A DNA stretch of 64,000 nt from Scylla paramamosain. Taxonomy: Eukaryota; Arthropoda; Malacostraca; Decapoda; Portunidae. Each line of letters starts with the position of its first letter. Position 1 is the first letter of the stretch. The notes under the pieces are model-generated. The model had not been told where the DNA came from and did no database searches. It worked only from the letters and a program-made list of their open reading frames with translations. Below are positions 18 through 51,300 of this stretch, piece after piece. The DNA lies in assembly GCF_035594125.1 (NCBI RefSeq), contig NC_087197.1, positions 6,877,852 to 6,941,851 of the forward strand, given 5' to 3'. The translations under genes were made by a program, and so were the position numbers.

Positions 18-509
18 TTAACAAGGGAGTTCTTCCACACGGTTCTCAGATACATCATTAATACTACAGTGTAAATCGTTATATAATTCCAAGTCATGTA
101 ACCTTTGTATAGGCCTCAGAAAGGTGCCCTTTGCAGTTTTAACCTTTACACTTGTGATTAAGCCATCTTTACCTGGGAAGACTTCTAACACAATACCACA
201 GGGCCAAGACATCCTAAGAATATTGTCTTCCTTAATCAATACCATACAGCCTTCCCTTAAATTACATTTTGGTAGAAGTCCCTTAACAGTAGGAGGCAAA
301 TTCATAATGTAATCACAGCTCCATAACTTCCAGAATTTATCAAGTTGCTGTTGTCTTATTTGTTCCCTGAAACTCAAGTCCATAGCGGAAGATTGCACCT
401 TGCCTTCATCTCTATCCTCCACTTTAAACCCTGCAGTACGGCCAATAAGGAAATGTGAAGGAGTTAGGGGGAGGGTGCTGTCAAGTTCCTCACCGACATA
501 GGTCAATGG
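18..509 (-). pseudogene. pol: BEL/Pao pol C-terminal domain (DUF5641-like)
   Basis: Directly downstream of the nonsense codon and in the same frame as the integrase comes PLTYVGEELDS, then LTPSHFLIGR, then a small barrel-like region (CMVLIKEDNILRMSWPCGIV...VKTAKGTFLRPIQRL). This is the end domain typical of BEL/Pao polyproteins. It ends with a TAA at about 18-20. Confidence 0.88.
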
Positions 510-1772
510 TCATGAGTTGATGCAAGCTTCTATTTCATGCAAAGTTGTCTCCAATTCCTTCCTTAATAGACATTTAATTCCTAATGTCTTTCTGAGTGAA
601 ACCTTGATTGACCTTACTAAGCCCTCCCACCAGCCTCCCCACCATGGGGCACGTGGTAAAGCAAATCTCCAGTTTAGAGCATGAGGACCAAATATATGCT
701 TTAATTTATGTGAAACACCAACAAAGGTTTGGGCATTGTCAGAATAGAATATAGAAGGGAGACCCCTTCTAGCTGCAAACCTGCGCAAAGCCAAGGTGCA
801 ATCGCTCATTGACAGAGAATCTGTTAGTTCTAAATGAATAGCTCTGACAACAGCACAAGTAAATAGCAGTATGTAGAACCTACTGGAAGGCTTATCTACA
901 CAAAATAAAGGCCCAGCATAGTCTAAACCAGTAACTGTAAAGGGAGGTGAGGGTGTAACTCTTGATGCAGGAAGAGGGGCAACAGGCTGAGAACAAGCCT
1001 TATGGTGCCTACGGCACGGTATACATTTGTTACATATTGACTTTGCCATCCTTCTCAATCCTACAATCCAGTAAGTGCTTCTTAAAGTGGATACAAGGAC
1101 AGAAACACCAGCATGCTTAAGCAGTAAATGTTGAAACCTAATTAATAGTTGTGCAACATGTCCAGAAGGGATTATAATGGGATGCTTGCTTTCATACAAA
1201 ATGTCAGCCTGATCTAAGCATTCCTTTACCCTTAGCAAACCATCAAAATCTATAAATGGGTCAAGTTTGCCTAAGGAATAACTCTGTGGAATAGCTTTGC
1301 CTTGTGAAAGAGCCTCAAATTCCTTGCCATAAGCTTCACGTTGCACACACTGGAACAACTTCATCTTAGCCTTGCTTAACTCCCCATACATTAATGGACC
1401 TGTGCACCTTTCACCCCTGAGTTTACAGTTATGAATGAATCTAAGTACCCAAGCAACAACTCTGACTGCCTTGCAAAACTCACCCCAACGAACAAACTCA
1501 AACACAGAGGAATGTGAAACAGTTACTGTTAGGCAGGAAGTAGCCACCTCCTCTTCACTATTCTCCTTACTATTTAGCATATATTGTTCCTGCTGTGGGT
1601 GTTGAATGGGCAGAGACAACCAAGCTGGTCCATCAAACCACATCTCACTTGACACTAGATCCTCGGCCGGTGTACCCCTAGAAATAAGATCAGCTGGGTT
1701 ATCCTTTCCTGGACAATGATACCAAGTACTGGATGAAGTTAATTCCTGTATCTCCAAGACTGTTCTCCACAA
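510..1772 (-). pseudogene. pol: BEL/Pao integrase
   Basis: The frame begins in the RNase H tail (STWYHCPGKDNPADLISRG). The integrase N-terminal zinc-binding region follows (ICNKCIPCRRHH), then the DDE core: D in GLDYAGPL, D in YSDNAQTFVG, and E in APWWGGWWEGLVRS. All three catalytic acids look intact. The frame stops at TGA 510-512 immediately before the C-terminal domain. Because the same frame reads on in the next block, this is a single nonsense change, not a natural end. Confidence 0.92.
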
Positions 1773-3226
1773 AGCTTTTCCACCTGTGTGGTTCTCTCTT
1801 TATCCAGGATAATGTAACTGTGGAATCCGTCCAACAATGTAAAGGCATCTCAATGTGTAGAGCAGACTTGACATATGTTACCAGCCTTGCACATAGAAGA
1901 GCCCCAATTAACTCTTAGCGTGACAGGGTTAGATTCTTAAATGGAGTTACTCTTCCTCTGGATATAACAAAGGAGACACCAAATTTACCATCAGGTTGAA
2001 GAAATCTTAGATACACGCATACTCTGTAACCCTTTTCGGAGGCATCTCCAAAGGCGTGTAGTTCTGCTCCATTCATAAGTCTCCAAGAAACACCAGGGAA
2101 ATAACATCTCCTTATACACCATGTCTTAAACTGAGAAATGCTAATAAACCACTTCTGAAACTTGTACAATAACTGATCAGGAAGTACTTCATCCCACTCA
2201 ATACCTTCCTTCCATATCTCTTGAAATACTATCTTAATATACATAATGAAAGGACTTAGGAAACCAAGAGGGTCAAACAGTCTGGTTATACAGCTAAGAA
2301 CAGCTCTTTTGGTGGAAATTAGCTCTAAAGGAGTCTCTATGTTAAGTCTGGTAAACGAGAAACAGTCTTTATCTAATTTCCATTGCATGCCTAACACTTT
2401 AATAGCTTCTTTCTCGTCCAGACAGGTCTTATTACTGAAGTATTCCATCATATCTTTACTGTTTGAGATCCACTTAGCTAATATCATTCCAGCCTGAGCC
2501 AAAATAGAACATGATTCACCGAATCTCTCCTTGCCTTCTTCGATGCTGTCAGCGCCACATAGCCAGTCATCTACATAGAGATTTTCTTTTAATTCTTGCG
2601 CCACTTCTGAGCAAGGAAAGGACTTTAAATGATGTATGATGGTGGTATTTAGTAAAAAAGGGCTACTTTTGTTTCCAAAAAGGGACACGTAAGAATCTCA
2701 TGGTTCTTACGAATCTCATGGTTCTTACTTTATCTCCATACTGCCAAAGAAATCTGTGAACATCCTTATCCTCATCTCTTACATTTATCTGGAGAAAGGT
2801 CTTAGTGATATCTGCAGCGAAAGCTACCTGCCACCTCCTAAATCTCAAAAGGGTTTCAACAAGGTCAGGATTAAGAGAGGGTTCAGCCTCTAAGCAATCG
2901 TTCAAGGATTTACCGTTATAACTGGTTGCAGAAGCATCGAAAACAGGCCTTACTTTAGTAGAGGAGCTGCTCTCATGTACAACCGGATGATGGGGAAGGT
3001 AGTAAGTGGGATGAATACTTTTCAGTTGAGAAGGCGGGACTTCTTCACATATTCCTTCCTTCTCATACATTCGAAAGACAGTATCATATTCTTCCCTCAG
3101 GTGTGGATCCTTCTGGAATCTATGACACAAGTTAGACAACCTTTTTTCATCTATCTTTACATTGTCTTGCAACTGAGACCTAGCAGATTCTGACTTCCAG
3201 GGCCATGTCCACCACAAACTTTCCAT
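1760..3226 (-). pseudogene. pol: BEL/Pao reverse transcriptase and RNase H
   Basis: RT fingers and palm are visible: KVRPVFDASATSYNGKSLND, then AADITKTFLQINV, then the catalytic YVDDWLCG box. The palm is split by a frameshift near 2685. The Pao-type connection and RNase H follow (LHAFGDASEKGY, later CWTDSTVTLSWIK). An 18-bp in-frame tandem duplication at 2693-2728 inserts six extra residues just before the frameshift. A stop at 1915-1917 and a frameshift near 1758 break the RNase H. These domains would copy element RNA to DNA and remove the RNA strand; this copy cannot make them as one protein. Confidence 0.9.
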
Positions 3227-3439
3227 CTACAAATTTTACATGCTCATCAAACTTCTGCTGAACATAGTTACAATTCTCTGTTAATTCTTCCTTACTTGTT
3301 ACACCAATTGATTCTAAGTCCCAGAACTTACTCAGAGTGGATTCAGACACTGCATTGACACACAGAAGCTGTGTATTTGCCCCCATTGGGCTACTGGAAG
3401 TCCAAGAACCTGACAAAACCCACCCAAAAACGGATTCTT

Positions 3440-4770
3440 GGGCCTTCATGTAAACGAACTTGATTAGGAAGTATGAATTTCCAGTATGAGTCAACCCCCA
3501 CCAAAATATCTACATTAATGTGCTGGTCGTGTAAGTAATCATCAACTAAAGGTAATGATTCGTATCCCTTGAGTTTGTCTTTGGGTACCCTGGGACGTAT
3601 TAAAGGAACACATATGATATTAATTTCCACAGCCACTAAAGAATGAGCAATTCCCTTACAATCTTCTGATCTCAAATCATACAAGTCACTCATATAGCTA
3701 AGAGAGGAATTATTACCAAAGGCAGAGTAACAAATGGGTTCAGATTTCAACCATGTAGGCTTAATCCTTTTAACCAAGGAGCTTGATACATAGGACCTGT
3801 CAGAGCCTGTGTCAAAAAGTACTGTCACCTGAACACTATTACCTTTACCAGTACCAACTTTCACCTTGGCTGTCTGCAGAACACAGCACATGGAGTTCAA
3901 GGGTTCGTGGCCTTTCTGTGTATTGCATAGTGCAATTCCAACATGGTTTACTGAAGGAGTTATACTGCTCTCAGAACTCACCGTTGCACCTTCCCCAGCT
4001 GGCTTAACTGAATCATTTCTAGAAGTGACACCAGTGCTAGTCACTTTCGGCTGATCTTTAAGACAAAAGAGTGCGTTATGATTGCCTCTACACTTACTAC
4101 ACATATGTTTACACCCCTTGGAGATGTGTCCCCTAAAGCACAATTCCAAAGAGCGCACCTTTTCTTCTTGTTCAGCACGAGTAAGTTTACATACATTTAA
4201 GCACTTCTCACTTGGATGAGGCTTACCACAAAACGTACATCGGTTCATACCTGATGCTGAGAATGCAACAAGGGCAGAGATTACTTTCCTCCTTTCAGAT
4301 GCAATAGGGCCACTGCGTGTTTCCTCACTGCGGCAACCTTCCCTGTACAAGTCTGACCTCTCTCTCCGTTTTATTTCACTTTGGAGACAAGTCATTAACC
4401 AATCAAGATCACCATGTCCTGAACCATCTCTGGACCACTCCATACGAATCTCTTGAGGAAGACGGGACAGTATAACAGGAGTCAAAACAACGCCATACTG
4501 GTCTCCCTTAACTCCCAAAGCTTCCAAACTGCGTACGTGAGAGTTAAGCTGGTCCTGCATCTTCCACAGCGAAATGTACTTAGACCCCGACGACTTAACA
4601 GGCATGTCAATGTTCAACAGGGCTTGAATGTGTGCAAAGATGATGCGTTCAGGCTTCCCAAAGCGTTCCTTTAACATCTTACATGCTATGGGAAAGTTAG
4701 CAGCTGTAAGGGTTAGGCCTTGTAACACTCGCTTAGCCTCATCCTCAAGAGAAGAGTGTAGATAACCAAA
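3440..4770 (-). pseudogene. gag-pol: BEL/Pao gag C-terminal part, zinc knuckles and retropepsin
   Basis: This open frame on the minus strand (4728-3391) continues gag (LQGLTLTAANFPIACKML). It then has a Cys/His knuckle CTFCGKPHPSEKC (CX2CX3HX4C) and a second knuckle region (LCFRGHISKGC) that looks short by one cysteine. An aspartic protease follows, with active-site VLFDTGSDRSYVSS (D-T-G), then the DUF1758-like retropepsin body ending LVGVDSYWKF. The protease would cleave the polyprotein. The frame is lost near 3450; the following block (QESVFGWVLSGSW) is in another frame. Confidence 0.88.
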
Positions 4771-5270
4771 CAGAAGCCAAACTTGCTTATGGCAGGTATA
4801 TTTGCTTCTCCCACTAAGGCTTCAAACTGTTCCCAGAATGATAGCCAGTCAAGCACATTACCACTAAACTTGGTTAACTCTATACGTGGTAATCTAATGT
4901 TACTCATCACTGACTCGTCCGCTCCACTATCACTGCGCGAGGATGTACCAGCGCGTGGTACTGTCTGGGCTAACAGCTCAGCTAACTTTTCTGCTGCCTG
5001 CACTCTAGAGCACCTTACTTGACGGCGGAAGTGGTCGGCGGCCTCGATGTCCTCTTCCAACTTGTCAGACTCTGACATAGCCAGCTCCACAGCACTCTGG
5101 GCGTCATCCAGGGCAGCAAGACGCGTATCAAAGTCGTCTACCGCGTCTTCCAACTCTACTTTGGTAACCAAAGGCTTGGTAACCAAAGCAGTAAGGGGCT
5201 TTGCGCTGCGAGTTACCCAGCCACGGCATGTCGTCCGTCTCCTCTCCAGCTGTTGCTTGTCTTCTGCCAT
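4733..5270 (-). pseudogene. gag: BEL/Pao gag, N-terminal part
   Basis: The reading frame starts at the ATG 5270-5268 (MAEDKQQ...). It has a charged, helical N-terminal half. After about 150 residues comes the conserved BEL gag block LPRIELTKFSGNVLDWLSFW, characteristic of the DUF1759 family. Gag would form the particle that packages element RNA. Upstream in the same frame there is open sequence over the PBS, but the MAEDKQQ methionine is the natural start. Near 4770 an ~11-bp insertion, which repeats a TTTGG flank, throws the frame. The downstream gag continues in another frame, so this ORF ends in non-gag residues. Confidence 0.85.
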
Positions 5271-5301
5271 TCTGCCGAAAACTTGGGAATATCTTCCTTG
5301 T

Positions 5302-5321
5302 CCCGGGAATATATTCCCGGG
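5302..5321. repeat. 20-bp perfect palindrome overlapping the PBS
   Basis: CCCGGGAATATATTCCCGGG is its own reverse complement. It covers the inner part of the primer-binding site and the start of the BEL leader. In RNA it could form a hairpin or a self-complementary dimer contact. Confidence 0.8.
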
Positions 5322-5332
5322 TCTGGGCACCA
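5315..5332 (-). other. tRNA primer-binding site of the BEL/Pao element
   Basis: On the minus strand, two nucleotides after the LTR end, the sequence reads TGGTGCCCAGACCCGGGA. It starts with TGG, complementary to a tRNA 3' CCA, as expected where minus-strand DNA synthesis is primed. I cannot name the tRNA with certainty. Confidence 0.6.
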
Positions 5333-5334
5333 TA

Positions 5335-5664
5335 TGTTAGCCCCCAAAGCTTATCTAGGCAGGGCCAACATCGGCAGTTTCTCTTGATGAAGACAAAGCG
5401 TCCTTAGACGGAGGAGTAATGAATAGACCGGCGTACAAGCAGCGAATCCTTTATTTTCCCGAGGCAGCCCCGAGTACACCACTGGCAGGTGACGTGGTGA
5501 GTGCCTCACGTGGCAAACACCAGCATTGCATATTCATTTCAAATTGGATGTACAAAGGCATCAAAATCATATTACAAAAAATCATATTACAAACAAAGAC
5601 TAAACATATTAAATGAACAAAGGAAATATATGGTAATTATTAAATACACCCGTCCTAGGTAACA
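5335..5664 (-). repeat. 5' LTR of the BEL/Pao element
   Basis: Seen directly: on the minus strand the segment begins TGTTAC and ends CTAACA, an LTR-like TG...CA with 5-bp inverted termini. It is 330 bp long. It is followed after 2 nt by a TGG-starting primer-binding site, and it contains an AATAAA signal. The second LTR is not in the window, so the left boundary rests on the terminal inverted repeat alone. Confidence 0.72.
5450..5455 (-). promoter_or_regulatory. polyadenylation signal in BEL LTR
   Basis: AATAAA on the minus strand lies inside the LTR, about 115 nt before its 3' end. This is the expected place for the R-region poly(A) signal. Confidence 0.5.
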
Positions 5665-6206
5665 AAGAAAATGGTCCCACCACCAATCCGCCTTTTCAGG
5701 GGAAGCTCACACAAATCATAAATGAAATCCAACAAATGCCATTCAAAGTATCATATATGGGAAAACAAAAGACATTGTGAGAAACGTGCATTACACTATG
5801 CAACAAAATTTCACTTTTGTCCCAAAACATAATTTTCCAATTATTTCTATCTAAAACAAAATAGAAAAAAAAAGTCATTTTGATCCTAAAACTTTACTTT
5901 TGTGGTTAGAACAATTAATTTACATTTTTGCTTTATTTCATTATAGTATGGGTTACTATTGATTTTCATGTCAGGGAAAGACCTTTTGCAAAATTTCAAT
6001 TGTTTATATAATTGCTTCTGAAATTTTGCAAATAAGTTAAATCAATGAAAGAAATTATAAAGTGTTTTAGAGATTTTTAATTTCAATAAGATCATTCTTG
6101 AACTCACCAGATCTAGCAAGAAATTTTTCATATTTAGAAGAATTTGCTTACATTTCAGAAATCTTCTCACATCTTCCAGATTGTTCTACCAGACACTTTT
6201 AGAAGT

Positions 6207-6407
6207 TTCTAGAACGTTTTAGAACATTCTATTCAATGTAAACATTTCCAGAATATTCTAGAACTTTCTAGAATACAGTTGAAATATGTAAAATTATCAA
6301 TAATTTTATAAAAACTGCAAGAATTTTCTAGAACGATTGAGAATATTATAAAGTAGTTTGAAGAATATTATAAACAAATTGAGAACATTCTGGAACGCAT
6401 TCTAGAA
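6207..6407 (+). promoter_or_regulatory. Cluster of heat-shock elements
   Basis: The HSF-binding core is inverted nTTCnnGAAn. TTCTAGAA occurs at 6207-6214, 6256-6263, 6266-6273, 6326-6333 and 6400-6407, and TTCTGGAA at 6388-6395. Several have further in-phase GAA or TTC pentamers: AGAAG-TTTCT-AGAAC around 6201-6215, AGAAT-ATTCT-AGAAC-TTTCT-AGAAT around 6250-6274, and GAACATTCTGGAACGCATTCTAGAAGGAAC around 6383-6411. This makes extended, trimer-ready HSEs. The last lies about 34 bp upstream of a TATA box, the normal hsp-promoter distance. Binding is inferred. Confidence 0.78.
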
Positions 6408-6440
6408 GGAACAAGAATATTATAGAGTACTGCTTGACAA

Positions 6441-6475
6441 TATAAAAGCAGAGGCCTGCAGACCAACAATCACTT
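6441..6475 (+). promoter_or_regulatory. Core promoter: TATA box and Inr-like start
   Basis: TATAAAAG at 6441-6448 is followed by TCACTT at 6470-6475, one base off the arthropod initiator TCA(G/T)T(C/T). The A at 6472 is 31 bp from the first T of the TATA box, the canonical spacing. Predicted transcription is rightward from about 6472, through the small ORF at 6516 and towards the satellite. Confidence 0.72.
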
Positions 6476-6515
6476 TTGCTTTGGCTGCCTGAGAAGACAC
6501 ATCACAGGAGGTGAA

Positions 6516-6572
6516 ATGGCATCAAGAGGCTGCAATCATTCTCCAGATGCATTCTATTACATATGTGGTTAA
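6516..6572 (+). pseudogene. Short ORF behind the heat-shock promoter; truncated N-terminus of a transposon protein
   Basis: ATG at 6516 is 44 nt after the predicted start site and opens an 18-codon frame, MASRGCNHSPDAFYYICG, then TAA at 6570. The Cys-Asn-His...Tyr-Ile-Cys-Gly pattern resembles the N-terminus of a Cys/His-rich protein family repeated in animal genomes (from memory, not named). The same frame past the stop reads basic residues (LFKRRAKKF), suggesting the stop is secondary and the rest of the ORF was lost. It may encode nothing functional, or it may act as a short upstream ORF of a heat-induced transcript. Function unknown. Confidence 0.5.
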
Positions 6573-8143
6573 TTATTTAAGAGAAGAGCAAAGAAGTTCT
6601 GTGACAACCTCTGGAAAAAGGGTGAAATTTTGCTATTTTTGGGCAAAAAATAGTTTTATAAGATAGAAAAGCAAAGTTTGACAGGAGTAATGGACATTTT
6701 CTATTGTTTTGCAATGAAAAGAGTTGGAAAATAACACCTGCTTTTCAAAGAGAAAAATCGTGTTACATAGTGTTATGAGTGTTTCAGAGGTTCTTAGGTA
6801 TCAAAACGTAAAAACTCCATATAGCACTCTATATGGAGAAAGAGAACAACATAATGCATACAAAGCTCCTTATATAGGAAAACGAAACGGCATTACAAGA
6901 AAAAAAAATTGAGTTTTTTTTTTACTGCACCGAAACAATAGAAAACACCCAATACTGGAAGAGAAAACAACATTACCAAAAACATGTGTTTTGAGTCTTT
7001 TTCAGCTTCTTACGTACCAAAGCACTAAAAATCATACAAAACAGAATAACATTACTAAGAAAATATTATTTTGAATGTTTTTGTGTTTACAACGTAGAAA
7101 AATGCCCCCACCCAAAAAAAAAAGATAGAAAATACAAAATACAGGGAAAACGAAAACACAGTAAAAGAAACGTGTATTATGAGTGATTTTGAACTTTTTT
7201 GTTACCAAAGCTCAAAAATTTTAACAACTTTGCATATGGAGAAACACAGCAGCATTACCAAAAACGTGTATTTTATGATTTTTCACATTCTTAGGTACCA
7301 AAACACCTAAATGCATGCATAGCACCATATATAACGAAACGAACCAACTTGACAAAAAAAAAAAAAAAAAGACTTTTGAGAGTCTTTGAGCGTGTTAAGC
7401 ACCAAAACGATAAAAAGCATGAAAATCATCGTATATGGGTAGAAAAAAAAAAAAAAAAACGAGTTTCAATTTTTTTTTTTTTTTAGCTTCTTAACTACCA
7501 AAACGCTAAAACGCATGCAAAACACCCTTAATTAAGGAACAAAAAAACATTACCAAAAGCAAATATTTTGACTATTTTTTGAGCTTGTTACGTATAAAAA
7601 CACCAAAATGTAAGCAAAGTACACTATATTGGGAAACGAAAAGACAATACGAAAAACTTGTATTATGGCTGGTTTTGAGCTTCTTAGACACCAAAACGCG
7701 AAAACGCGTTAATAGCAGTCTATATGGAGAAACAGAACATTACCAAAAAACAGTATTTTGACTGTATCAAAATGCCAAAATGCAAGCATAGCTCCCCTAT
7801 ACTGGGAAACGAAACGACAATACCAAAAAATGTGTCTTTTGAGAGTTTTGAGCGTGTTAGGTACCAAAAGGTTAAAAAAGCATGGAAATCAACCTATACT
7901 GGAGTATATTGGAATACATGTATTGGAATTCTTAGGTACGCTAAAACGCATGAAAAGTATTTTATAAGGAGAAAGAGAAGAACTTCCAAAAAAACGTGTA
8001 TTTTTAATGTGTTTAACATTGTTTGGAACCAAAACGTGAAAATGCATGAAAAGCATCCTATATCGGGAAAGTAAATGAGATTTCAAGAAACTTTTTTTTT
8101 TTTTTTTTTGTGTTTATAAGCGTGATAGGCACCAAAACGATCG

Positions 8144-8315
<172 letters not shown>

Positions 8316-9401
8316 CACCTATGTGAGAAAACAAAACATTACCAAAAACTTGTCTTTTCAGTGTATTTGAGTTACTTACGTACCAAAACACTAAAACGCA
8401 TGCAAAACACCCTTAATGGAGAACCAGATCATCATTACCAAAAAAATGTATTTTTCAGTGTATTTCGCATTGTTAGGTATCTAAACGACAAAATGCATGG
8501 AAAGCACCCTATAGGGGGAAAATAAATAATATTTACTGATCCATGTCTTTTTTTTCTATGTTAAGCACCAAAGCGCTAAAAAAGCATGGAAAGCCCTTTA
8601 TCGGAATAAAAAAAAAAAAAGCATCATAAAAAACGTTGTCTTTTGAGTGTTTGTTTAACGTGTTAGACACGAAAAACGCTAAAAAGAATGGAAATAAGAG
8701 AATACAAAAAAACAAAACCATTACGAAATAAATGCCTTTTGAGTGTTCTTTGAACTTCTTACGTACCATAACGTTAAAACGCATGCAAAACAGCATTTAT
8801 GGAGAAACAGAATAACTAACAAAAAACACGTTTTTTTTTTGAGATTTTATTGATCTTACTACAAAAACGAAAAAATCCGTGCTAAGTACCCTATGTGGGG
8901 GAAAAAAAAGACATTACAAGAGACATCCATAATGAGCTTGTTAGGTTCCAAAATGCTTAAACGTATTAAGGAGAAACAGAACAACATTATCAAAAACGTG
9001 CATTTTGATTTTTTTTTTCACATTGTTAGGTACCAAAACGCCAAAATGAAGCAAATTACTGTCTAGGGGGAAAAGAAATGACATTTCCAAAAATATGTTT
9101 TTAGAGTGTTTATGAGCATATCAGGCACCAAAACGCTATAAAAGCATGTAAAGGATTTTTGTAGGAAAACAACATAACCAGAAACATCTCATTTCAGCGT
9201 TTTTCAGTTACTTACCTACCGAATCGCTAAAACTCATGCAAAAAACCCTTCAAGGAAAAAAAAATTCACTAAAAACGTGTTTTGAGGGTTTTTGAGCTTG
9301 TTATGTAGAAAATAGCAAAATGGCTGTAAAGTATTCTATATAAGGAAAAGAAAAGACATTACGAGAAACGTGTATTATAAGAGTTTTGAGCTACTTAAGT
9401 A

Positions 9402-22456: not shown

Positions 22457-25400
22457 TAGATCACTGTATATAAGGAAAACGAAACGATATTATCAGAGAC
22501 GTCTTTTTAGCTTTTTCTTTTATTTTTTTTGTAGCGTTTTAGGCAACAAAACATTAAAATCCATGGAAAGCACCCTATATTAGAATACAAAACAATATTT
22601 CCAAAAAGTGTCTTTCCATTAATTGGGAGCTTCTTTCGTATCAAAATGCTAAAACGCATGTAAAAAAAAAAAGAAAAAAGAAAACACTTTATGAAAAAAC
22701 AATAACATTACCAAAAATGTTTATTTTGAGTGTTTTGAGCTTATTAGGTACAAAAGCGACAAAATGCATGCATAGTACCCTATATGGTGAAAAAACGTAA
22801 TTACCAAACGTGTGTATTATGAATATTATTGACCTTAAGTAACTAAACTCTAAAAACCGTAACGAGCACTCTGAACACTGAACACACAAAGAACGTGATT
22901 TGAATAAAATGAACAAAGTTACCAGAAAACGTGTATTGTGAGTGTGTTTGAGCACATAAGGTACTAAAACGCCAAAATGCACGCAAACCATCTTATATGG
23001 GGAAACGAAGGGACATTATGAGAAACGTATATAACGAGTGTTTTTTTGAGCTTCTCAGACACCAAAACGCTAAAACACATGAATAGCTCTCTATAACGAG
23101 AAACAGAAGATCACCAAAAACGTTATTTTTTTTTTTTTGTGTGTGTAATTCATATTGTTAGGTATCAAAACGCCAACATGCTTGTAAAGCCTCCTATATG
23201 GGAAACGAAAAGACATCACCACAAACGAGTCTTTTATGCATTTAAGAGCGAGCTCAGCAACAAAACGATAAAAAGCATGGAGAGCACACTTATTGGGAAA
23301 ACAAAACAGTATTACCAAAAACGTCTCCTTTTAGTGTTTTTAAAATGCATGAAAAAAAATCACTATGGAGAAACAGTATAAACACCAAAAAACGTGTATT
23401 TTCAGTATTTTTGAACTAGTTATGTACAGAATCGCCAAAATCAATCCAAATAGCCCTATATGGAGAAAAAAAAAAAAAAAAAAACGAGAAACGTGTATTA
23501 TGAGAGTGTGAGCTTCTTAGGTGCTAAAATGCTAAAACGAATTAATAGCACTTCATGTCGAGAAACAAAACAACATTAACAAAAAAATGTATTTTGAGTG
23601 TTTTCACACTATTATTTATCAAAACACCAAAATACATGCAAAGCTCCCTAAATGAGCAATGAAAAATTACAATTGTATTACAACGTTGTAGCCATCAAAA
23701 CCCTAAAAACCATGGAAATCGCAGCATATGTGAATACAAAACATTACGAAAAAAAAGTCTTTTGAGTGTTTTTCAACTTATTACTTACCAAAACGCTAAA
23801 ACTGATGTAAAACATCCTTTATGAAGAAAATACAATAACATTACCAAAAACAAGTATATTTAGTGTTTTGCGCTTTGTACGAACAAAAGCACTAAAATGC
23901 ATGCAAAGTACCCTGAATGGGAAAACGAGAAAACATTACAAGAAACATGTATTATGAGTGTTTCTGAGCTTCTTACAAACCGAAACGCTAAAACGTATGG
24001 ATAGCACTCTATATGGAGAAAAACAACATTAACAAAAACGTGTATTTTGAGATTGTTTCATATTGTTAGGTCATATAACGCAAAAATGCATGGAAAGCAA
24101 CCTATAAGGGGAAAAAATACATTTCCAGAAACGTTTCTTTTGAGGGCGTATGAGCGTTTTAGGCACCAAAAACACTAAAAAAAACATCAAAAGCACCCTA
24201 AATGGGAAAAGAAAACAATATTACTAAAAACTTGTCTTTTGAGTGTTTTTCAGCTACTCACGTACTAAAACGCTAAAAACGCATGCAAAAAAAAAAACAT
24301 TTATGGAGAAACATAATAACATTAAAAAAAAAAAAAGCTTTTTCAGAGTTTTTAAGCTTATTAGATACTAAAACTCAAAATCTTTATATGTAGAATGAGA
24401 ACAACATTACCAAAAACGTGTATTTTGAGTGTATTTCACATTGTTAGGAAACAAAAAGCCATAATGCATGAAAAGCACGTTATATGAAGTAAGGAAACGA
24501 GGTTTCCAAAAAACTTCACTTTTGATTGTTTATGAGCGTGCTGGCACCAAAACGCTAAAAGGTATGGAAATCACCCTGCATGAGAAAAGAAAATATTCCC
24601 AAAATTGTTACGTTTTTTAATGCTTTTGAGTTACGGAAAAACGGAAAAAAACTCGTGCAAAACACCCATAATGCAAAAACAGAATAGAATTACCAAAAAC
24701 AAGGTTTCGAGGGTTTTTGAGCTTGTTACGTAGAAAAACAAAGTGCATGGAAATTACAACTATGGGGAAACGAAAAGACATTAGCTTAAACTTGTATTAT
24801 AAGTGTTTTGAGCTTCTTAGGTACCAAAAAGATAAAACTATGAATAGCACTCTATATGTAGAAACAGAATAACATTACAAAAAACGTTTTGATCTTAGAG
24901 ACTAAAACGCATGAATAGCTCTCCAAACAGAGAAACAGAACAATACCAAAACGTGTACTTTGAGTGTATTTCACATTGTTAAGTACCAAAACGCTAAAAT
25001 GCATTCAAAGCACCCTGTAAGAGGTAAGGAAACGAAATTTCCAGAAAAGTGTATTTTGAGTAGTTATAAGCGTGCTAGGCATCTAAACGATGAAAAAAAA
25101 AAAAAGGAAAGACCTCTATATGGGAAAACAAAATATTTTAAGAAAAAAATATTCTGACCTACTTATGTATCAAAACGCAGAAAAACATGCAACTTTTTTT
25201 TTTTTTTTTGTTTCATGGGGAAACATTATGACTTTTCCAAAAATGTATATTTTGAATGTACAAAAATAACAAAATGCATAAAAACCAGTCTGTATGGGGA
25301 AACGAGAACAAGAAACGCGTATTATGAAAGCTTTTCAGCTTCTTAGTTACCAAAATGGTAAAGCGCATGAATAGCACTCTATGTTGAGAGACAACATTAC

Positions 25401-30236: not shown

Positions 30237-30340
30237 ATGATTCCCATGCTTTTTAGGAATATAATTCGTAACACGCTCAAAAACATTCAAATGACACGTT
30301 TCTGGAAAATTTGTTTCCTTTCCTCATGTAGGGTATATTA

Positions 30341-30755
<415 letters not shown>

Positions 30756-31257
30756 CCTTTTTTTGTTAATGTTTTTGTGTTTCTTCACATATAGGGCTAT
30801 TTATGTTTTAACGTTTTGGTATCAAAGAAGCTGAAAAAAAAAACTGTTAACGCACGTTCTACGTTATGTCCTTTCGTTTGCCGAAATAGAGTACTTTCCA
30901 TGCATATTTGCCTTTTTTTACGAAATAACCTCAAAACACTCAAAAAAATTGTTTTTTTGTCATCTTATTATGTTTCTCCATGATGGGTGTTTTGCATTCG
31001 ATTTAGCATTTTCGTAAAAAAGCTATAAAAAAAAACACACAATAGATACGTTTTTAGTAATGTTGTTTTCTGTACCCATATGTTTTACTTGCTTTTTAGG
31101 GTTTTGTTGCCTAATATGCACAAAGCATCCAAATATGCTTCTTGTTATATCTTTTCGTTTCACCATATAAGGGTCTTTGCATGCATTTTGGTGTTTTGGT
31201 ACTTAACAATGTGAAAAACACTAATAATACACGTTTTTGGTGGTATTATTCTGTTTT

Positions 31258-48347: not shown

Positions 48348-51300
48348 GTGCCGGATGCAGTGGATGGCCGCCCTTGTCGTCTTATGGTGGACACAAGCGC
48401 TGAGAGGACGTTCGCCAGGGAGGTGGTGGCAGCTCAAGATCCTCCTGTGTCGGGCCAGCAGTCATGTGATGTTACTGGCCACTGTGTGGCTCTCCGCGGC
48501 TCTGTGACGTCCAAGATTGCAGTGGGTCGCGTCAAAGAGAAGTTGCCAGTCTACGTCGCCGACATGGAGGAACCCAGTTTGCTGGGGCTTTATTTCCTGG
48601 TTCAGAGTGCAGCCTGTATCGACTTCGGGAGTATGACGATGAAGGTGCGCGATGAAGAGGTACCTTTGGTCCCGATAGGCGCTGCTAAACAGGTGGAAGA
48701 TCCCGTAGTAGGTCATGTTGTCACCAAGGAAGCACTGGAGCTGCGATGCCGAGCCTCGAAGGAAGGAGAGAACAGAAACGTCACCATACCAACCCGAACA
48801 CGCGAGACAGCGGTGAACAGCGGCCCGAGTGGAGCGGGCAGCGGCGCGGATGAGGTGGAGCCCGCAGTGCCCAAGCACTTGGTGGATTTAGCAGCGAGAA
48901 GTGCCGCCAAGCTGACTCCTGTCCAGGTGAGGAAGATGGAGAAGTTGCTGGTGGAGTAGGCGTACATGTTTAGTCGAGGTGATCATGACCTCGGTCATAC
49001 ATCGCTGGTCCAGCACTCCATCAACACAGCCGACAGTCTGCTGATCAAGAAGCCTCCCCGACGTATTTCACTGACCAGGAGGGAAGAGATGCAATGCATA
49101 CTGGACGAGATGGCAGCGCAGGGAGTAATGGAGCATTCGGACAGTCCGTGGTCGTCGCCGGTGGTCCTGCAGGCTGGTGAGTAAGAAGAACGGCATCAGG
49201 CGCTTCTGTGTGGATTACAGGGCGCTGAACGACGTCACGGTGAAAGACTCCTTCCCTCTGGCCAGGAGTGATGACACCCTAGACGCCCTGGATGGCGTAC
49301 AATGGCTGTCTACCCTGGATCTCAACTCAGGGTACCACAAAGTCATGATGGCAGAGGCAGATAAGCAGAAAATGGCATTCTCCTTCGGCCAGGGATTGTG
49401 GCAATTCTGTGTGATGCAGTTCAAACTGTGCAACACCCCGGAGTGCTTCGAGCACCTTAGTCTACCTCGACGATGCCCTGGTGTTCGTAAGAACGTTCGA
49501 GCAGGAGCTGGAAAGACTGAAAGAGGTACTGCGCCGCCTGCGGGAAGCAAACCTGAAGCTGATCCTCAGGAAATGTACCTTCTTCCAGCATGAAGTCCTT
49601 CCCCTTCCTCGGGCACATAGTGGGGCGAGGCGATGTGCACACGGACCCTGCCAAGATGTCAGCTGTGGTGGAATGGTCCGTCCCAACGGTAGTGGCAGGT
49701 GTATGAAGTTTCCTCGGCCTCTGTAGCTATTATAGAAGCTTCATGGAAGGCTCCGTCACCCTCGCTGAATCAGCTGACTAGGAAGAGCGCCCGTTTCGTC
49801 TGGGATGAAGCGTGCCAGGGTGCCTGTGATGGCCAGAAGGCAGCGCTGATGAGTGTTCCGATGCTGCCGTTTCCTGACCCTATTTTTCCGTTCCTGCTAG
49901 ACACCGATGCTAATGCTGAGGGCATCGGAGAGGTGCTGTCGCAGGTAAAGGAAGGGAAGGAGTACTTCCTGGCTTACTACAGTGCCAAGTTCAGTAAGCC
50001 AGAAAGAAACTACCGTGTAGCCAGGAAGGAGTTACTGGCAGTAGTGCAGAGTCTGGCCCACTTCCACTCCTACCTCTACGGGACCCTACCTCTACGGGGT
50101 TCAGTTTGTCACCCGGACTGATCACGCTGCTCTCCAGTGGCTGAAAATTCTGTAGGACCCAGAAGGATAGCTGTCGAGATGGCTGGGCTACCTAGAGGAG
50201 TACAACTATCATGTGGTGCATCGGCCGTGGTGGATTCACGGCAATGCGGACAGCTTGAGCCGCCGACTTTGCGAGCTAGGGTGCTTGCACTGCTCCAGGC
50301 GTGAAGAAGCTGTTACCTGCCGCTGCCTGCGAGTGAAAGGTGGACTCAGAGAGGTCCGCCAGCAGCGGAGGGATGCGCAGCAAGCAGACCCTGACCTTGC
50401 CTCAGTGATGAGATGGCTGAGGGAGGGAGGGCGGGCGGCCAGGCAAGGAGGAATTGTCACTGGAGAGTCCTGCCACGAAGGCTCTAGTACAGCAGTGGGT
50501 GACACTGAGGCTGTAGGATGGCGTGTTGCAGTGATGATGGGAGGATGTGGCCATGGACAAGCGTGCCTGGTTGCTGGTGGCTCCCCTCTCCCTATGCGCC
50601 GAGCTGCTCAAGGAAACTCACAATGGTGTCTCTGTTGGGCACATGGGGGCAAAAGAAGACTGCCACCTTCGTCAGCATGAGACAGGATGTGGAGGAGTGG
50701 TGCAAGTTATGCTGCGCCTGTGCTGCCAAGAAAGGTCTCGCACGCCATACAGGCGCTCCATTCCAGCTTTATTAGTCCAGTGCAACCATGCAGCGGGTGG
50801 CGGTGGATATTGCTGGATCACTGCCTTTTACACCTCGAGGTAACCGGATCCCGGATCATGAGGCAGAGAGCGTGGCTGGTGTGCTGGTGAGAGTTTTTCA
50901 CCAGGTTTGGGATCCCAGAACTACACTCTGATTAAGACCAGGAGTTTGAGTTCCAGGTTTTCAAGCAGTGCTGTGAGTTGTTGGAGGTGCACAAGACTCG
51001 CACTACGCCTCTCCACCACCAAAGTGACGGCATGGTTGAACGATTCAAGAGGACACTGGCGGAGAAACTGACCAAGTACTGCAGTTCGGACCAGCAGGAT
51101 TGGGACCTGCGGCTGCCTTTCACCCTGATGGCGTACTGGTCGGCGCAACAAGAGGCCACTGACTACACTTCGGCCCGGATAATGTTTGGCCGGGAGATGC
51201 GTTTGCTGTTAGACTTGGCTACAGGACGACCACCGGGGGGAGGAGTTGCAAGGGACAGCGCCTGAGTTTGTAATAGAGTTGCAGCGACGGATGGACGCTA

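Follow-up and report, generated by a model that had tools for sequence, protein, structure and literature searches.

A deleted Chapaev3 transposon in Scylla paramamosain with a candidate heat-shock promoter shared by transposase-bearing relatives

Introduction

Stress-mobilised transposons include few cases in which a molecular link to the stress is visible in the element itself. Where the stress is heat, such a link may take the form of HSF target sites, which consist of alternating GAA/TTC units spaced 5 bp. ONSEN of Arabidopsis is a heat-responsive LTR retrotransposon, and the terminal repeats of DIRS-1 of Dictyostelium have been reported as heat-shock promoters. ONSEN is likewise a mobile element tied to heat; as an LTR retrotransposon it differs in class from the cut-and-paste family described here, as does DIRS-1, a tyrosine-recombinase retrotransposon. 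In Cryptococcus, which has the mobile CMC elements CNIRT6 and CNEST, some of the elements become more mobile under heat, and putative HSEs are named for TCN3 and TCN12, in the LTRs of these two (PMC12810828). TCN3 and TCN12 are heat-responsive mobile elements with putative HSEs, as we propose for the present family, but are LTR retrotransposons (PMC12810828).

In Caenorhabditis, HSEs carried by Helitrons drive the transposase of these elements and extend to host genes; Helitrons are reported to hold almost two-thirds of the HSEs of C. elegans, with HSF-1 binding and heat induction (PMC6927752). Like Helitron1_CE and Helitron7_CB, the family described here is a DNA transposon with HSE clusters before its transposase gene and with many non-autonomous HSE-bearing copies. 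Helitrons, however, are rolling-circle elements of nematodes in which binding and induction have been measured, whereas the present elements are cut-and-paste Chapaev3 transposons of a crustacean, known from sequence (PMC6927752). The Chapaev3 elements Merrow and Garfield encode a transposase of ~556-562 aa in two exons (78 + 484 aa in Merrow) (PMC4079192). They have in common with the present family CAC...GTG ends, a TWA target site duplication (TSD) between A and T, the motifs C(2)C, LH and H(4)H, deletion-derived MITEs and a two-exon transposase of like size; no description of an HSE or promoter was found for them in that report, from the main text of which the word “promoter” is absent (PMC4079192).

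Here we describe an element in a 64,000-nucleotide stretch of the Scylla paramamosain genome (GCF_035594125.1, NC_087197.1, positions 6,877,852 to 6,941,851, forward strand; hereafter the window), in which the candidate link is a transposase promoter common to transposase-bearing and deleted copies. The original prediction held that a CMC-like animal element with such a promoter had not been described, and this agrees with searches of one open-licence literature library, in which the titles and abstract openings listed did not mention HSEs for any Chapaev element or crustacean transposon. The family would be an HSE-driven transposon in another superfamily, and probably in another animal group.

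The Element and Its Insertion Site

The window copy (Table 1) is bounded by CACTATG.../...CATAGTG termini that align over 106-108 bp with a score of 74, against a maximum of 48 among 500 shuffles of one arm. That it is a TIR element with a clean TTA duplication, as had been claimed, is borne out by TTA on both sides with A and T as outer neighbors and by empty sites in satellite monomers. Empty sites are available within the window because the element sits in a satellite: when its flanks were joined over one TTA and compared with satellite monomers elsewhere in the window, the joint was spanned in 89 of 126 alignments, without gaps in 50 of these 89, many of the listed ones having a single TTA. 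The insertion target is a diverged satellite-like array that occupies 6800-38300 and beyond, and the 126 BLAST alignments of the joined site run in both orientations.

Table 1. Features of the window copy (positions in the window; a point marks features given without strand).
Feature	Position	Strand	Basis or remark
Non-autonomous Chapaev3 element, whole, 979 bp, in a satellite monomer	5794..6772	+	TIR alignment, genome matches
Left TSD, TTA, preceded by A	5791..5793	.	Sequence, empty sites
Right TSD, TTA, followed by T	6773..6775	.	Sequence
Left TIR region (CACTATGCAACA...), imperfect; comparison of the 120-bp arms only	5794..5901	+	Arm alignment
Right TIR region (...CATAGTG)	6667..6772	-	Arm alignment
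HSE array 1, GAA TTC GAA TTT GAA TTC, 5-bp phase, one imperfect slot	6202..6229	.	
HSE array 2, TTCCAGAATATTCTAGAACTTTCTAGAA, six perfect alternating units	6246..6273	.	
HSE array 3, GAATTTTCTAGAA	6321..6333	.	
HSE array 4, GAACATTCTGGAA, then an out-of-phase TTCTAGAA at 6400-6407 (-72 to -65 of the predicted start)	6383..6407	.	
TATA box, TATAAAAG	6441..6448	+	Exact in 19/23 other short copies
Predicted initiator, TCACTT, A at 6472, 31 bp past the T of TATA; family consensus TCAGTT	6470..6475	+	
Relic of transposase exon 1, MASRGCNHSPDAFYYICG*LFKRRAKKF, stop at codon 19	6516..6599	+	Profile scan, E 1.9e-4
Internal deletion junction; parental 5′ and 3′ parts with short AAAATG-type microhomology	6610..6634	+	By eye

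Duplication of a 3-bp TWA between A and T (here A-TTA...TTA-T) and 5′-CAC/GTG-3′ ends are features of Chapaev3, and the latter are also found in most other copies with both ends located. TSDs of other copies were mixed. Among 27 copies tried, ends were located in 24 (window copy included); 10 of these had an exact 3-bp repeat, which was TWA in seven, each between A and T, and ATT, AAT or TAT in three, while in 14 of the 24 the TSD was absent or imperfect.

Elsewhere in the window, remains of a BEL/Pao-type LTR retrotransposon occupy 18-5336 on the minus strand (Peptidase_A17, E 7e-35; integrase zinc-binding domain, E 4.7e-7), a reverse transcriptase match (RVT_1, E 2.1e-8) lies at 49129-49590 on the plus strand in another retrotransposon-like stretch, and a long TA microsatellite at 30277-30765 is open in several frames.

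Assignment to Chapaev3

The frame from 6516 is presumably the start of a widespread uncharacterized animal protein. When all six frames of the window were scanned with a profile built from 37 relatives, this relic was the only match below the HMMER inclusion threshold (E 1.9e-4), and 19 of its 28 residues are identical to those of the mantis shrimp protein P0004. A protein search with an approximate version of the family protein gave 1,847 proteins at E <= 0.001, and among the 120 relatives listed were named proteins of fish, mantis shrimp, prawn, wasp and sponge; the family was likewise retrieved with an open frame from the window’s own genome (1,849 proteins at E <= 1e-50). Full-length relatives of the transposase are mostly 553-570 aa long. 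In an alignment of 37 database relatives (A1), C327 is present in 36 of 37, and C330, L375, H376, H484, H489, D260, D308 and E503 are each present in all 37. The C(2)C, LH and H(4)H motifs of Chapaev3 and DDE-type acidic residues are therefore found in the relatives, the window copy itself retaining ~28 codons, and exon 1 (~70 codons) and exon 2 were matched separately in genome copies, as in a two-exon transposase. By its TWA TSD, CAC/GTG ends, motifs and two-exon transposase of ~560 aa, the family matches the description of Chapaev3 (CMC), and of Merrow and Garfield in particular. The earlier designation as CMC-like was right and can be narrowed accordingly by the ends, TSD and transposase motifs.

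Several other searches gave no assignment. The relic peptide had none in Pfam, and as a 44-aa query it found no useful match in a protein search; the approximate family protein had nothing above the curated Pfam cut-off. Nothing was found with the TIR pattern and the transposase alignment among viral contigs, with the transposase among prokaryote contigs, plasmids and phages, or with the element DNA among phages. The transposase had a single match among solved structures (E 0.81). Its N-terminus is weakly ZAD-like (zf-AD, E 0.006, under the curated cut-off; PDB chain LD30467p, E 0.81).

A Phased HSE Block Before a TATA Box

The six HSE cores that had been predicted to lie within 200 bp, five of one kind and one of another, were all located between 6207 and 6400: TTCTAGAA starts at 6207, 6256, 6266, 6326 and 6400, and TTCTGGAA at 6388. 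The window contains eight TTCTAGAA in total, against a mean of 1.63 and a maximum of 5 in 100 shuffles. Runs of at least three alternating GAA/TTC units at exactly 5 bp start at 6202 (3 units), 6246 (6), 6321 (3) and 6383 (3), and in the whole 64-kb window only one further such run was found, at 25034. The four runs place 15 phased units within a 200-bp block. Dinucleotide shuffling of the element never gave as many (0 of 2,000 shuffles, mean 0.10), nor did shuffling of the 240-bp block 6201-6440 (0 of 5,000), and when the window was shuffled block-wise 200 times, 250-bp clusters reached six phased units at most. Chance clustering of HSEs, which had been called small, can be rejected, since both the phased units and the TTCTAGAA count far exceed those of shuffled sequence.

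The core promoter was also confirmed in the order predicted, with TATAAAAG at 6441, an initiator A 31 bp on at 6472, and an ATG at 6516. TATA/initiator pairs with such spacing occur at two places in the window, both strands considered, among 683 TATA-like words on the plus strand and 673 on the minus strand. At least three contiguous inverted nGAAn units lie 5′ of the TATA box, as in a heat-shock promoter.

Short Copies in the Genome

A search of the 1.21-Gb genome with the element gave 1,267 first-look candidates, of which 40 were scored, most of them full length and with 84-87% identity. The 30 element loci used here (window copy included) are the best of these 40 and are therefore biased toward intact copies. 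Six near-identical copies (L017-L019, L021, L022 and L028) were excluded from the consensus and from copy counts, and the short-copy consensus was built from 22 independent copies, also without L001 and the fragment L020. HSE character is stronger in this 991-bp consensus than in the window copy: it has seven TTCTAGAA and seven runs that comprise 25 units, together with TATAAAAG, the initiator TCAGTT, which is a canonical one, and an open start MASRGCNHSPDAFCYICGQFIKTRAKKFSVTASGKM. Each of the 23 other short copies counted (the 22 consensus copies and L020) had three or more phased runs, with a mean of 18 units. Across the whole genome, long and short copies together, a 33-mer specific to the block matched at 549 places with at most three mismatches, and its reversed control at none.

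The same consensus bears on what the repeats are. In CMC relatives such as En/Spm, transposase binds repeated subterminal sites, and a GAA/TTC motif that is repeated and palindromic would suit such a role, so that the block might consist of transposase-binding repeats (as in CACTA/EnSpm) and not of HSF sites. All 25 phased units, however, fall within consensus positions 381-640, with none in the first 380 or beyond 640, and they lie 5′ of a TATA box, initiator and ATG; a like motif precedes the TATA box upstream of a host hsp70 gene. Given the position of the units, we rejected terminal transposase-binding repeats and regard this explanation as unlikely. A minisatellite-like expansion that resembles HSEs by chance is more improbable still, and we consider it barely credible. 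In the window copy, Tandem Repeats Finder did report two weak arrays with a 10-bp period and 2.9 copies. The spacers between arrays are irregular, however, and when 160 combinations of reverse-complement trinucleotide pair and spacing were scanned in the consensus, GAA/TTC at 5 bp was the only one strongly enriched (25 units; runner-up 6). Furthermore, the block lies upstream of the start in 25 of 27 transposase loci. A minisatellite artefact was rejected on the irregular spacers and on this specificity for GAA/TTC at 5 bp.

Downstream of the ATG, AATAAA and ATTAAA are absent from the short-copy consensus and present in 3 of 23 copies (the 22 consensus copies and L001; window copy included). 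Because the first AATAAA or ATTAAA downstream in the window is at 8521, within satellite, a transcript from 6472 would be expected to run into the satellite.

Some short copies have company. In seven 975-bp copies (L016-L019, L021, L022 and L028), the flanks are 98-99% identical over ~1.5 kb on the left and 120 bp on the right; a frame in the left flank looks reverse transcriptase-like by eye, and the short element seems to hitchhike in another repeat at these loci. In L020, a piece of the promoter region at 1501-2194 (consensus 115-812; 96% identity to the window copy) is truncated at either end and fused to other repeats, and a frame that by eye is non-LTR-like begins ~190 bp downstream of it.

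Transposase-Bearing Relatives

A genome search with P0004 gave 2,098 candidates, of which 78 were scored. In the first 30 transposase loci (L031-L060), the N-terminal exon was found in 11, and phased HSE runs lay 5′ of that exon in 10 of these 11, with one run each in L044 and L059; L050 has exon 1 without the block. Among a further 15 exon-1 loci (L061-L075, with matches from residue 1-24), the block was present in 14, the exception being L071, of a lineage with 52% identity. L079 (48% identity), chosen as a presumed outside control, carries the block as well. An HSE block thus lies 5′ of the transposase N-terminal exon in 25 of 27 loci (11, 15 and L079); L047, with an HSE-bearing 5′ end and no exon 1 match, stands outside this count, and L078, which stops short of the transposase start, was not used as a control. 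Over 760 positions, insertions ignored, the 25 long-copy promoters and the short copies have identical consensus sequences. In long copies in which both signals can be read, the TATA box is placed at -75 relative to the ATG, and the initiator A at -44.

The original prediction placed the parental transposase under this promoter and named full-length relatives lacking the block as evidence to the contrary. With the block in 25 of the 27 exon-1 loci and an identical promoter consensus, its reading of the parental arrangement is upheld for this family. L076 and L077, two loci of the genome that belong to a different Chapaev3 lineage, show no phased run across ~1 kb ahead of their start. Since these and L071 lack the block, it is a trait of this family and not of all Chapaev3 elements in the genome.

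The 3′ end of the short element also occurs in long copies. In seven of eight long copies that match both sides of the junction, the match on the 5′ side runs to consensus 839-850, and that on the 3′ side starts from 833-840 (from 864 in L033). The common 3′ end and the meeting of both matches at a microhomology therefore identify the short element as an internal deletion derivative. The window copy cannot mobilise itself, because it is internally deleted and has a stop at codon 19. Shortly past the coding end, six long copies have AATAAA (three), ATTAAA (one) or neither (two).

Six other transposase copies (L031, L034, L037, L038, L046 and L049) have neither an exon 1 match nor HSE runs, and in five of them (not L038) a terminal-repeat-like stretch adjoins the first matched residue (~95-115). 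Database proteins that begin with “MVDPSKRR” may represent the same form.

HSE Arrays Genome-Wide and at Host Heat-Shock Genes

The perfect five-unit HSE GAANNTTCNNGAANNTTCNNGAA has 562 matches genome-wide on both strands, against 15 for the reversed control. The 100 rows listed of these 562 correspond to 58 arrays, and 53 of the 58, assigned by sequence alone, are at most two mismatches from a family array, 37 of them exact. Judged by the perfect five-unit arrays in these 100 rows, one Chapaev3 family may supply most of the strongest HSE arrays of the genome.

The genome encodes an HSF DNA-binding domain (one exon matched), and its hsp70 genes, taken as a host control, gave a mixed picture. 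Five hsp70-family genes (L080-L084) were examined over the first 0.9-1.0 kb upstream, which contained a single run, of three units, in L084. What precedes the start codon in L080-L083 resembles an intron end, and the search was therefore extended further upstream at four of these genes, in three stretches (L085-L087) that we infer from their position to be hsp70 promoters. Upstream of one gene (L086), a perfect 4-unit HSE, TTCGGGAAGGTTCGGGAA, is followed by TATAAATG; between a divergent pair (L085), the signal is weak, with one HSE dimer, TTCNNGAA, on each side before TATAAATG; and upstream of a further gene (L087), no HSE was found.

Conservation of HSE Units

Selection on HSE units relative to their spacers was sought in short and long copies and was not found. 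Divergence was 0.036 in units and 0.041 in spacers of short copies (p=0.53), and 0.064 and 0.056, respectively, in long copies (one-sided p=0.70). Relative to the remainder of the element, units of short copies did diverge slightly less (0.036 vs. 0.053, p=0.012), but this does not single out HSF sites, because the spacers are likewise lower (0.041). Such a lack of difference between units and spacers would be expected of copies that decay with no selection acting on HSF sites.

It is quite conceivable, and we would put the chance not far below even, that genuine HSEs formerly drove the transposase in a family now extinct or silenced, so that heat would today have no measurable effect. Short copies lie ~5% from their consensus, with HSE units not specially conserved relative to spacers. 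Most long transposase matches of the family contain stops, L035, L036 and L055 being open over part of the protein only, and no transposase copy intact across both exons was established in this family, which may be dead. Many blocks are nevertheless intact (98 of the 100 listed rows of the 33-mer were exact), so that promoters could fire even with transposition dead.

Discussion

From the anatomy of the element, its sharing with transposase-bearing relatives, its copy number and the presence of its sequence in most of the five-unit HSE arrays listed, we consider it likely that the window element is a deleted copy of a Chapaev3 transposon whose HSE promoter would be driven by HSF on stress and would express a transposase that mobilises long and deleted copies. 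The long form is a ~2.7-kb Chapaev3 element consisting of a TIR, a leader of ~720-730 bp, exon 1 of ~70 codons, a short intron, exon 2 and the 3′ end, with the leader serving as a putative TATA/initiator promoter with seven HSE arrays (25 phased units in the consensus). Under heat or other proteotoxic stress, host HSF trimers would bind the arrays, transcription would be induced from a start 44 bp before the transposase ATG, and the enzyme produced by stressed cells would mobilise long and deleted copies alike. A deletion derivative that lost the transposase body and the parental poly(A) signal but retained the promoter, 36 initial codons and both ends has amplified, and each short copy would be a potential mobile heat-inducible promoter with read-out via its 3′ end.

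Merrow_PM, with 2,451 bp and 562 codons, has ~765 bp of non-coding sequence in total, while the 5′ leader of the present family alone takes up ~720-730 bp (PMC4079192). Because the leader is long relative to Merrow, the comparison suggests that the promoter was acquired in this lineage.

Under a further-reaching reading, the family would have captured the host heat-shock response: it would have moved under HSF control, and its deleted copies would now constitute most of the strongest HSF targets of the genome and act as outward heat-inducible promoters. We offer this tentatively and would sooner expect it to prove wrong than right. If true, heat shock would give rise to hundreds of dispersed transcripts, including, in the window, transcripts into the satellite array from 6.8 kb on; the short copies would compete with hsp genes for HSF; and the family would be a crustacean parallel to the Caenorhabditis Helitrons, independent of them. 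With a candidate link visible in the transposase promoter, heat-triggered transposition and the rewiring of a heat-shock response by transposons become directly testable, in a lineage whose thermal tolerance is relevant to aquaculture and climate.
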